Shown: positions 24,373 to 28,237 of the stretch, piece after piece
How positions within the stretch are numbered: position 1 is the stretch's first letter
How the letters are laid out: every line of letters starts with the position of its first letter
Assembly (NCBI RefSeq): GCF_026930145.1
Contig: NZ_JANHOJ010000001.1
Coordinates: forward strand, 248,001-312,000
Direction: 5' to 3'
Origin: Bartonella sp. A05
Lineage (GTDB): Bacteria; Pseudomonadota; Alphaproteobacteria; Rhizobiales; Rhizobiaceae
DNA length: 64,000 bases
Notes under the pieces: generated by a model
Database searches by the model: none
Told to the model about the DNA's origin: nothing
What the model saw: the letters and a program-made list of their open reading frames with translations, nothing else
Made by a program: the position numbers and the translations under genes

Positions 24373-25155
24373 ATGACAGCTGAAACAGAACGTGTAGGAG
24401 TCAAAGGAGGCATGGAGCATTCTTTTGGCTTTACAAAAGTTGACGAAACTCAAAAACAATCCATGGTAGATGGTGTATTTCATTCTGTTGCTGAAAACTA
24501 TGACAGAATGAATGATATTTTATCTCTCGGATTACATCGTGTGTGGAAAAATTCCATGGTCGCGTGGCTTTCCCCGCCTGCGCTATCTGGCTGGAAAGTT
24601 CTTGATGTGGCTGGCGGTACTGGCGATATCGCTTTTCGCATTTTCAACGCCTCACGCCAAAAAGCACATGCCACAGTGCTTGATATTAATAGCTCAATGC
24701 TGAGCATTGGCAAAAAACGTGCACAAAAAAATGGTCTAACCTCTTTTATTGACTTTGTTGAAGCCAATGCAGAACATCTTCCTTTTGAGGATCAAAGCTT
24801 TGATGCTTACACTATTGCCTTTGGAATCCGCAATGTACCACATATTGATAAAGCTCTTACTGAAGCCTTTCGTGTTTTAAAACCAGGTGGGCGTTTTTTA
24901 TGTTTAGAATTTTCAAATGTTGAAATGCCTTTGCTTGACAAGGTTTACGATCTTTGGTCCTTCCATGCTATTCCTCGACTTGGCCAACTAATTGCAGGTG
25001 ATCGTGACGCATATCGTTATTTGGTTGAATCCATTCGAAAATTTCCTAAGCAGGATGATTTTGCCTCTATGATCAGTCATGCAGGCTTTTCACGAGTATC
25101 TTATCGCAATCTCACAGGTGCCATTGCAACATTGCATTCAGGCTGGAAGATCTAA
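24373..25155 (+). CDS. ubiE: UbiE: demethylmenaquinone/ubiquinone C-methyltransferase
   Basis: A 260-residue SAM-dependent methyltransferase of ubiquinone biosynthesis, adding the C-methyl group to the benzoquinol ring. Motif I is [14 protein letters not shown]. Family signatures are [19 protein letters not shown] near the N terminus and [19 protein letters not shown] followed by [14 protein letters not shown]. The C terminus is [18 protein letters not shown]. ubiB starts one base after the stop codon, so the two form an operon for ubiquinone synthesis. Confidence 0.96.
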
Positions 25156-25156
25156 A

Positions 25157-26743
25157 ATGGCGCAAATTTCCACTTATTTTCAATTGGTACGTGCAGGATG
25201 GATTTTAGCACGTGAAGGAGTTCTTAGCGCTCTCCCAAATGATAACCTTCAAGGATTCCCAGCAGCGTGTCATCGTGTAGCAAAAGCTTTAGCGCGGCGC
25301 AAAACAAAAAAAAAGCACCGTTCTGAAAATCTAACACACGCTATTAATAAGCTTGGTCCTTCTTACGTCAAGCTTTGTCAATTTCTTGCAACAAGACCCG
25401 ATATTGTTGGACACGATATTGCAGCAGATCTAGAACAACTCCAAGATCGTGTACAAACATTTCCCTGCACAGCTGCCATTGATCAAATTGAAAATTCTCT
25501 TGGCCGCTCTATCAATGATTTATTCATAGACTTTCACCCACCCATTGCCGCCGCTTCTGTTGCCCAAGTTCATCCAGCTGAATACTACGATAAGACAGGC
25601 CGCAAAAAAAAATGTGCCGTTAAAGTTATCCGCCCTAATATCAGAGCACGTTTTGCAAAAGATCTTAAAAGCTTCTATCTCATTGCCAATTTACAAGAGC
25701 GTTATGTGCCTGCCTCTCAGCGCCTCCGGCCTGTTTGTGTCGTTGATACTTTGGCACACACCATACGGATTGAAATGGATTTACGTTTAGAAGCAGCCGC
25801 CTTTTCGGAAATGGCTGAAAACACTAAACATGATGCTAACTTCCGGGTACCCGCAATTAACTGGGAAAGAACGGGACGAAATGTTCTAACAATGGAATGG
25901 ATCGATGGCATAAAACTGTCTGATATTCCAGCACTCAAAAAAGCTGGTTTTGATTTGAAAGCTTTAGCAGTGACACTTATGCAATCTTTCCTCCGTCATG
26001 CTTTGCGTGATGGCTTTTTTCATGCCGATATGCATCCTGGCAATTTATTTGTAGATCCGCAAGGATGTATTGTTGCCGTTGATCTAGGAATTACAGGACG
26101 GCTTAGTAAAAAAGAAAAACATTTTCTTGCTGAAATTATTTACGGCTTTATCACCCGCGATTACCATCGTGTGGCACGCATTCATTTTGAAGCAGGTTAT
26201 GTCCCTCCTCATCATAGCATAGAGGACTTTGCCCAAGCTATCCGTGCTATTGGTGAACCCATTCACGGACAACCCGCGCAAAGCATTTCTATGGCCAAAT
26301 TGCTCACACTCTTGTTTGAAATCACTGAATTATTTGATATGCAAACACGGCCGGAGCTTTTATTGCTACAAAAAACTATGGTTGTTGTGGAAGGTGTCGC
26401 TCGTACATTGGATCCAGACTTTAATATGTGGCAAACCTCTGAACCAGTTGTTAAAGAATGGATAGGAAAAAATTTAGGGCCTGTGGGACTTCTCAAAGAC
26501 TTTAGCGAAGGAGCAGAAGCTTTGATTTCTCTAGCGCGTAAAACACCGCAATTGATACACAGCTTTCAAAAGATAGAAGAAGAACTCTGCCAAATAACAA
26601 AAACAGGACTCCATCTTTCTCCTCTCACCCTCAAACAACTTGCCTTCGAACAAAGTCGTGCTAAACGTTCTAGTCACTATAGCTTATTCATGATCACTCT
26701 TTGTTCCATTTTTATCACTTTTTTTCTTTTTCAGCTTTTATAA
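25157..26743 (+). CDS. ubiB: UbiB/ABC1-family protein of ubiquinone biosynthesis
   Basis: A 528-residue UbiB, an atypical protein kinase-like ATPase of the COQ8/ABC1 family needed for ubiquinone synthesis. The Ala-rich loop is intact (IAAASVAQVH), as are the AVKVIRP lysine strand, HADMHPGNLF and the metal-binding VAVDLGITGR. A hydrophobic C-terminal segment (SLFMITLCSIFITFFLFQLL) should anchor it in the membrane. The family KxGQ motif reads KLCQ here (Cys74). The frame is open from 25079, but the ATG at 25157, directly after the ubiE stop, gives the normal N terminus. Confidence 0.92.
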   Translation: MAQISTYFQLVRAGWILAREGVLSALPNDNLQGFPAACHRVAKALARRKTKKKHRSENLTHAINKLGPSYVKLCQFLATRPDIVGHDIAADLEQLQDRVQTFPCTAAIDQIENSLGRSINDLFIDFHPPIAAASVAQVHPAEYYDKTGRKKKCAVKVIRPNIRARFAKDLKSFYLIANLQERYVPASQRLRPVCVVDTLAHTIRIEMDLRLEAAAFSEMAENTKHDANFRVPAINWERTGRNVLTMEWIDGIKLSDIPALKKAGFDLKALAVTLMQSFLRHALRDGFFHADMHPGNLFVDPQGCIVAVDLGITGRLSKKEKHFLAEIIYGFITRDYHRVARIHFEAGYVPPHHSIEDFAQAIRAIGEPIHGQPAQSISMAKLLTLLFEITELFDMQTRPELLLLQKTMVVVEGVARTLDPDFNMWQTSEPVVKEWIGKNLGPVGLLKDFSEGAEALISLARKTPQLIHSFQKIEEELCQITKTGLHLSPLTLKQLAFEQSRAKRSSHYSLFMITLCSIFITFFLFQLL

Positions 26744-26772: not shown

Positions 26773-26798
26773 GATAAAATCATTGCAATCATTTTATC
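26773..26798. promoter_or_regulatory. near-perfect 26-base palindrome just upstream of coaBC
   Basis: GATAAAAT (26773-26780), a central ATTGCAAT (26782-26789) and ATTTTATC (26791-26798) make a palindrome with only one mismatched base pair, flanking the centre. It ends 15 bases before the coaBC ATG. As a hairpin or operator it could control coaBC; see the finding on the RHH fusion. Confidence 0.6.
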
Positions 26799-26813
26799 TC
26801 TTTGGATTATTAT

Positions 26814-28211
26814 ATGGCCAGTATTACCATTCGCAATCTTTCATCTGAAGTAAAAGAATCTTTGCGCATGCGTGCCGCAAAAAATGGCATTTCTATGGAA
26901 GAAGAAGCGCATCGCCTGTTAAGCAATCCCACCGTACCATCATCCATCCCAGTATTTCAAGCAAGCACTGTCGAAATGCAATCATTGCAATCAAAATCTA
27001 TTCTCCTCATTATCGGTGGTGGTATTGCCGCCTATAAATCACTGGACCTCATTCGCCGTTTGCAAGAACGGGGAGCGCGATTAAATGTTATTATGACAAA
27101 AGCAGCGCAAAAATTTATTACCCCTTTAGCCGCTGAAGCCCTGAGCGGTAGCACTGTGTATAGCGATTTATTTTCACGCAAAGAAGAACATGATATTGGG
27201 CATATCCGGTTAGCACGTGCTGCCGATTTAATTATTTTAGCACCAGCTACCGCTAACCGCATTGCCAAAATAGCCACTGGCATAGGAGATGATCTGGCTA
27301 ATTGTGTTCTTTTAGCTGCACGCTGTCCACTCTTGATTGCACCGGCCATGAATCCAGCCATGTGGACTCACCCTGCAACTGTCCGCAATGTTGCACAATT
27401 ACGTTCAGATGGGGTTCATATGGTCGGACCGGAAATTGGCGAAATGGCAGAACGAAATGAAGCAGGCTGGGGGCGCATGAGCGAACCCTTAACTATTGTG
27501 GCCGCAGCGGAAGCGCTTTTAAGTACGCACAAAAAATCACTTTCCGGCCGCCATTTTATCGTTACTTCTGGTCCTACCCATGAACCAATTGATCCAGTAC
27601 GTTATCTTGCAAACCGCTCATCGGGAAAACAAGGTCATGCAATTGCAACTGCCTTAGCTCATTTAGGCGCAACAGTGACGCTTATTTGCGGTCCGGTTGA
27701 TCTTCCAGATCCACAAGAAGTAAAAACCATTCATGTTGAAACAGCCTGTCAGATGTTACAAGCTGTTCAAACGGCATTGCCAGCTGATGGAGCCATTTTT
27801 GTTGCCGCCGTTTGCGACTGGCGCAGCCAAACGAAATCTGTACAAAAAATCAAAAAGGATGCTCATAAAAAGCCTTTATCTTTGCATATGGTTGAAAATC
27901 CTGACATTCTAGCAATAATCGGCCATGCTCCAAATCGCCCCAGACTTGTGATTGGGTTTGCAGCAGAAACTTGTGATATTATCGTCAATGCACAAAAAAA
28001 ATGTATTCAAAAAGGTGCAGATTTCATTCTTGCAAATGATATTTCTTTCCATGCGGATGGCACAAGCGTTATGGGTGCTGATAGCAATCAAATCTGTTTT
28101 GTCAGCAAAGAAAAAGTTGAACAATGGCCAAGCATGAGCAAACAACAGGTTTCTGAAAAATTGGCTAATATTATTGTATCCCTTTTCTGCTCTCCTGCTT
28201 CTGCTGATTAA
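26814..28211 (+). CDS. coaBC: CoaBC (phosphopantothenoylcysteine synthetase/decarboxylase) with N-terminal RHH domain
   Basis: A 465-residue bifunctional enzyme of coenzyme A synthesis. Residues 1-40 form a ribbon-helix-helix domain of the FitA/VapB antitoxin type (MASITIRNLSSEVKESLRMR, then GISMEEEAHRLL). After a linker, CoaC spans about 60-240: IIGGGIAAYKSLDLIRRL, the catalytic-His segment GHIRLARAADL, and APAMNPAMW. CoaB follows with GPTHEPIDPVRYLANRSSG. The CoaC clamp that in E. coli holds Cys158 reads AERNEAGWGR and lacks the cysteine. A TTG at 26802 is an alternative start adding four residues. The frame runs unbroken through the fusion, and no partner toxin gene is nearby. Confidence 0.92.
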   Translation: MASITIRNLSSEVKESLRMRAAKNGISMEEEAHRLLSNPTVPSSIPVFQASTVEMQSLQSKSILLIIGGGIAAYKSLDLIRRLQERGARLNVIMTKAAQKFITPLAAEALSGSTVYSDLFSRKEEHDIGHIRLARAADLIILAPATANRIAKIATGIGDDLANCVLLAARCPLLIAPAMNPAMWTHPATVRNVAQLRSDGVHMVGPEIGEMAERNEAGWGRMSEPLTIVAAAEALLSTHKKSLSGRHFIVTSGPTHEPIDPVRYLANRSSGKQGHAIATALAHLGATVTLICGPVDLPDPQEVKTIHVETACQMLQAVQTALPADGAIFVAAVCDWRSQTKSVQKIKKDAHKKPLSLHMVENPDILAIIGHAPNRPRLVIGFAAETCDIIVNAQKKCIQKGADFILANDISFHADGTSVMGADSNQICFVSKEKVEQWPSMSKQQVSEKLANIIVSLFCSPASAD

Positions 28212-28237
28212 AATTAAAAAGATCTTTTTAATTTTAA
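28208..28237. terminator. perfect 30-base palindrome overlapping the coaBC stop
   Basis: A perfect inverted repeat centred on the AGATCT hexamer (28220-28225), with arms made of A and T runs (left arm TTAAAATTAAAAAGA). It starts at the end of coaBC and includes its TAA. The stem is AT-only apart from the centre, so it is a weak hairpin, but the position suits a bidirectional terminator. Confidence 0.5.

Follow-up and report, generated by a model that had tools for sequence, protein, structure and literature searches.

A near-palindrome upstream of coaBC in Bartonella probably contains an operator for the antitoxin-type RHH domain of CoaBC

Introduction

CoaBC of Bartonella sp. A05 carries an RHH domain at its N-terminus, and the near-palindrome that precedes its gene in all likelihood includes an operator for autoregulation, whereby RHH-CoaBC would bind a pair of half-sites and repress coaBC. 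Among relatives, the site tracks the RHH domain and is missing where the domain is lacking, so the data are best explained by an operator for RHH-CoaBC ahead of the gene that encodes it. The combination of an essential enzyme and its own predicted operator recurs in Bartonella, Brucella and many other genera; if true, it would be a tangible example of an antitoxin domain recruited together with its operator grammar for housekeeping control. Natural controls are at hand in relatives whose coaBC locus holds a toxin–antitoxin module instead and in those that have neither.

The RHH-coaBC locus

The stretch of DNA that was analysed, referred to as the window, comprises 64 kb of a genome of 1.56 Mb, and positions are those of the window. 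The features of the locus are as follows.

25079–26743, + strand: UbiB-like open reading frame, the upstream neighbour, 70 bp from the coaBC ATG
26773–26798, no strand: near-palindrome GATAAAATCATTGCAATCATTTTATC, 26 bp, 12 of 13 pairs matched, the sole mismatch being C/C
26775–26791, + strand: predicted operator O1, half-sites TAAAATCA (26775–26782) and TGCAATCA (26784–26791) at 9-bp pitch, 22 bp before the ATG
26814–28211, + strand: RHH-coaBC gene, 465 aa plus stop
26814–26924, + strand: FitA-like RHH domain (PF22513), residues 1–37, model helices 11–24 and 28–37
26928–26975, + strand: disordered linker, residues 39–54, pLDDT under 50
26977–26993, + strand: in-gene site O2, perfect pair TGCAATCA-T-TGCAATCA, codons 55–60 (MQSLQS), end of the RHH–CoaC linker
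26994–27500, + strand: CoaC (Flavoprotein, PF02441), residues 61–229
27540–28100, + strand: CoaB (DFP, PF04127), residues 243–429

The protein belongs to the CoaBC equivalog TIGR00521 (405 bits versus a cut-off of 219.7), and the N-terminal RHH domain claimed by the initial annotation is borne out by a PF22513 match over residues 2–37 (51.3 bits versus a gathering cut-off of 27); the pairwise match of this domain to the solved FitA chains 2h1o/2bsq is weak. The structure prediction (mean pLDDT 76.5) gives RHH helices, a disordered linker and then the CoaC fold. As the gap between ubiB and coaBC is only 70 bp, it holds no toxin gene in the window. At the other end of the gene, a perfect 26-bp AT-rich palindrome, AAAATTAAAAAGATCTTTTTAATTTT, lies over the coaBC stop codon (28210–28235) and is possibly a transcription terminator.

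From the near-palindrome to a pair of half-sites

The near-palindrome is as first described, with one mismatched pair and its 3′ end 15 bases ahead of the coaBC ATG (26814). Taken alone it is unusual, yet not overwhelming, because zero-loop palindromes of 26 bp with at most one mismatch occur twice in the 64-kb window (the other being the perfect one at 28210–28235), where dinucleotide shuffles of this length yield 0.09. Two signals are stronger, namely that its core AATCATTGCAATCA recurs exactly at 26980–26993, within the coaBC gene, and that relatives keep the half-site pair. The outer arms GATAA/TTATC are special to the genome of the window and vary among the aligned Bartonella upstream regions, so that the palindrome was rejected as the conserved unit and is best regarded as an incidental, local form of an octamer pair.

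The unit that is conserved consists of two 8-bp half-sites whose starts are 9 bp apart; each reads TGCAATCA or, as its complement, TGATTGCA. A pair of the type TGAAATCA-T-TGCAATCA is kept in the aligned Bartonella upstream regions, and deep-branching species of the genus, including the bee-gut B. apis, have TGATTGCA-T-TGATTGCA, i.e. these octamers read from the opposite strand. Across genera, the octamer pairs are direct or inverted and, in rare cases, everted. O1 of the window has two mismatches; it is conserved across the genus as this type of pair and, in other genera, as the same octamers.

Co-occurrence of the RHH domain and the half-site pair

A half-site pair, defined as lying within 120 bp of the gene with at most 3 mismatches out of 16, precedes 66 of 68 coaBC genes with the RHH domain and 1 of 53 without it, compared with 22 of 1360 dinucleotide shuffles (1.6%). 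The lone RHH-less gene with a pair has it inside coding sequence. For L152, one of the two exceptions with the domain, scoring had begun at an incorrect start codon; the actual upstream region holds TGCTAGCA and TGATAGCA, not at 9-bp pitch. Every one of the 80 named RHH-CoaBC loci that were found by scanning GTDB species genomes (Bartonella, Brucella, Phyllobacterium, Mesorhizobium and others) has the pair upstream, and such sites are also present in a further family of the order, f35, that has the fusion. In one locus, L229, an insertion has displaced the pair to about −187; the record of this locus (JAHREI010000007.1) is titled Bacillus subtilis SK6B4, and the contig has a coaBC locus of Pseudochrobactrum type, which suggests a wrong label or a contaminated assembly. 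The CoaBC of L121/L318 (G205) has a different in-frame N-terminal extension that looks by eye like an XRE-type helix-turn-helix and has no Pfam match at E 0.01.

On a CoaBC tree of 88 relatives built from 398 columns (a 150-column tree being too weak), the RHH domain changes state 11 times, at least 5 of them on well-supported branches, and domain and operator agree in 86 of 88 relatives, the exceptions being L029, which retains a diverged RHH and has no recognisable site, and L318, an RHH-less gene with a three-mismatch match inside coding sequence. The operator follows the domain in all five supported independent pairs, with a sign test that reaches only p 0.06 because the pairs are so few. 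A ubiB homologue stands upstream of coaBC in both classes, hence the neighbourhood alone does not explain the difference between them. The conservation check called for initially thus lends good support to the link between the RHH domain and the site, but not to the palindrome as the unit: the half-site pair follows the domain and is absent from RHH-less relatives, but the full palindrome, whose arms vary, is not kept.

Co-loss alone is no proof of function, since domain and operator are adjacent and one deletion can remove both; a comparison of L320 with its congener L033 suggests just such a single event. A stronger indication of function comes from conservation among loci that retain the domain. 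In 15 loci of the Brucella group, the invariant columns fall almost entirely in the operator and in a TGCAATCA half-site that touches the start codon. Four loci (L032, L228, L229 and L233) have between operator and start codon an inverted repeat with a T run (AAAGCGGTATTC...GAGTATCGCTTTTTT), terminator- or attenuator-like in appearance.

A second site inside the gene

The centres of O1 and O2 (sequence of O2, TGCAATCATTGCAATCA) are 202 bp apart. Most Bartonella retain O2, and of 305 7-codon windows ranked by synonymous conservation, those covering it hold the top two places; the Ser57 codon is TCA in 41 of 41 sequences and, where the amino acid changes from Q to K, the DNA takes the TGAAATCA variant, as seen upstream. 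In the genome of the window, the single exact TGCAATCANTGCAATCA is this in-gene copy. As a general feature the in-gene site was rejected, for outside Bartonella the scores equal those of codon shuffles, with the exception of a similar pair in L035. The in-gene site is decayed in L025–L027, which have a diverged RHH; within Bartonella as a whole, RHH divergence correlates weakly with operator mismatches (p 0.08 and 0.28). In L028 (G009), a frameshift breaks the RHH frame, CoaBC stays open and the upstream site is decayed too; its CoaBC perhaps starts at the ATG inside the in-gene site.

Relationship to FitA–FitB modules

About 16 of 38 RHH-less relatives have a FitA-like antitoxin gene between ubiB and coaBC, usually with a PIN-domain gene (Pfam-checked). 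These are L045, L049, L051, L052, L301, L306, L308, L310, L315, L317, L321, L059, L302 and L322, together with L050 and L058, in which fitA is kept and fitB is only a remnant. Upstream of FitA-like genes in relatives, TGNNNNCA half-sites form arrays of two to four with a pitch of exactly 9 bp in 20 of 34 cases versus 0.04 expected from mononucleotide shuffles. The CoaBC operator therefore shares the FitA-type operator grammar, and RHH-coaBC is, like members of the FitA-like family, preceded by an operator of FitA form. The adjacent PIN toxin gene that marks a type II toxin–antitoxin system is absent from the window and present in RHH-less relatives instead; having no toxin gene, the RHH-coaBC locus is not such a system.

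The CoaBC RHH is most likely the DNA-binding domain of an antitoxin taken over by an essential enzyme, because both the domain and its site are FitA-type in form and the fitA–fitB modules of relatives occupy the same locus. From position and grammar, we infer that the fused domain descended from the module at the ubiB–coaBC locus; sequence comparison over the 36 residues of the domain does not separate coaBC-linked from other FitA as its source, 14 of 25 being closer to the linked ones. Module and fusion coexist in L299 (G194), where a FitA-like/PIN pair, complete and with a 9-bp-pitch array of its own, stands directly upstream of an RHH-fused coaBC. Four other loci (L329, L331, L337 and L338) represent a FitA-like antitoxin subgroup (ETHRALKVRA) with half-sites of the type TGATATCA/TGATAGCA about 20 bp apart, not at 9-bp pitch. 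Literature searches did not retrieve a published FitA operator sequence, and the Sinorhizobium ntrPR papers make no mention of coaBC.

Such an origin raises the question of a relic, i.e. a domain and an operator co-inherited from a toxin–antitoxin module and now functionless. The shared locus fits this scenario, as do the loss or decay of domain and site in L028, L029 and L320, but a relic is improbable given their strong conservation over many genera, in otherwise diverged intergenic DNA, and the synonymous conservation of the in-gene copy.

Specificity of the site and its reader

In the RHH-containing genomes searched, exact TGATTGCANTGATTGCA sites lie at coaBC only (8 of 8), and four RHH-less genomes have none. 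A regulon beyond coaBC was rejected, exact sites being confined to coaBC and near-matches elsewhere lying almost all in open reading frames. The only PF22513 protein detected in the genome of the window is CoaBC itself, as in 7 of 10 other RHH-containing genomes searched, which makes CoaBC the obvious reader of the site. Another regulator, either a separate antitoxin of the FitA type or some unrelated factor, to which RHH-CoaBC is merely genetically linked, might be thought to own the site, considering that stand-alone FitA-like antitoxins use very similar ones and that some relatives have two or more FitA-like proteins; this is hardly likely in view of the lone PF22513 proteins and of the absence of the site from RHH-less relatives with the same ubiB–coaBC neighbourhood.

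No clear promoter was found at O1 of the window, and neither a terminator-like site nor a promoter-like site on the strand of the gene was found at the palindrome; in many other genera, a permissive scan places the operator over promoter-like hexamers. Those hexamers, and a palindrome ending 15 nt before the ATG, could suggest that the 5′ region forms a structure in DNA or RNA, such as a hairpin or terminator, or that the palindrome is simply part of the promoter, a very improbable reading given the lack of such sites in the window, the arms not kept complementary in relatives and the conserved octamers on either strand and also in direct-repeat order, which an RNA hairpin would not tolerate.

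Proposed mechanism of autoregulation

In the favoured autoregulatory circuit, RHH dimers on the CoaBC N-terminus would bind the TGCAATCA/TGATTGCA pair at 9-bp pitch before coaBC, and the bound protein would repress the gene, repression being presumed rather than activation. In Bartonella, RHH dimers probably also bind the second pair, 202 bp downstream in the gene, and a CoaBC oligomer may bridge O1 and O2, which is possible because the mycobacterial CoaBC is a dodecamer (PMC7794376). A response of RHH-CoaBC to CoA status is a matter of speculation, for which the sole outside support is the inhibition of mycobacterial CoaB by CoA and acyl-CoAs (PMC7794376). An extended version, put forward tentatively for a broad Rhizobiales group, is that the CoaBC oligomer grips its own promoter via the antitoxin RHH and is released by binding of CoA or a substrate at CoaB; if true, the enzyme would therefore be its own CoA sensor.

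Comparison with known systems

Ordinary CoaBC/Dfp proteins, e.g. the mycobacterial one, have the same two enzyme domains (TIGR00521) but, unlike RHH-CoaBC, no described N-terminal DNA-binding domain. The only known regulation of mycobacterial CoaBC is the inhibition of CoaB mentioned above (PMC7794376). A literature search for a link between CoaBC and RHH found none, and a search combining antitoxin and coaBC gave nothing on point. FitA/FitB (VapBC-type) modules share with RHH-CoaBC the PF22513 family and TGNNNNCA-type half-sites at 9-bp pitch, and in some relatives they sit at the same ubiB–coaBC locus as the fusion. RHH-CoaBC differs from them in that the window has no toxin gene and the CoaBC enzyme stands where the antitoxin has its toxin-binding tail.

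The closest functional parallel is PutA of E. coli, Salmonella and Pseudomonas putida. Its RHH binds operators at putA itself and represses the gene (PMC5879082). Like PutA, RHH-CoaBC is a metabolic flavoenzyme with an N-terminal RHH and operator sites at its own gene, as far as the sequence goes, and on both sides some relatives are without the domain and without the regulation, the latter being judged for CoaBC from operator sequence only. The two enzymes differ in pathway, PutA serving proline catabolism, with proline as its ligand switch, and CoaBC serving CoA synthesis; the CoaBC RHH is, unlike that of PutA, FitA-like by Pfam, with sites made of TGATTGCA octamers at 9-bp pitch.
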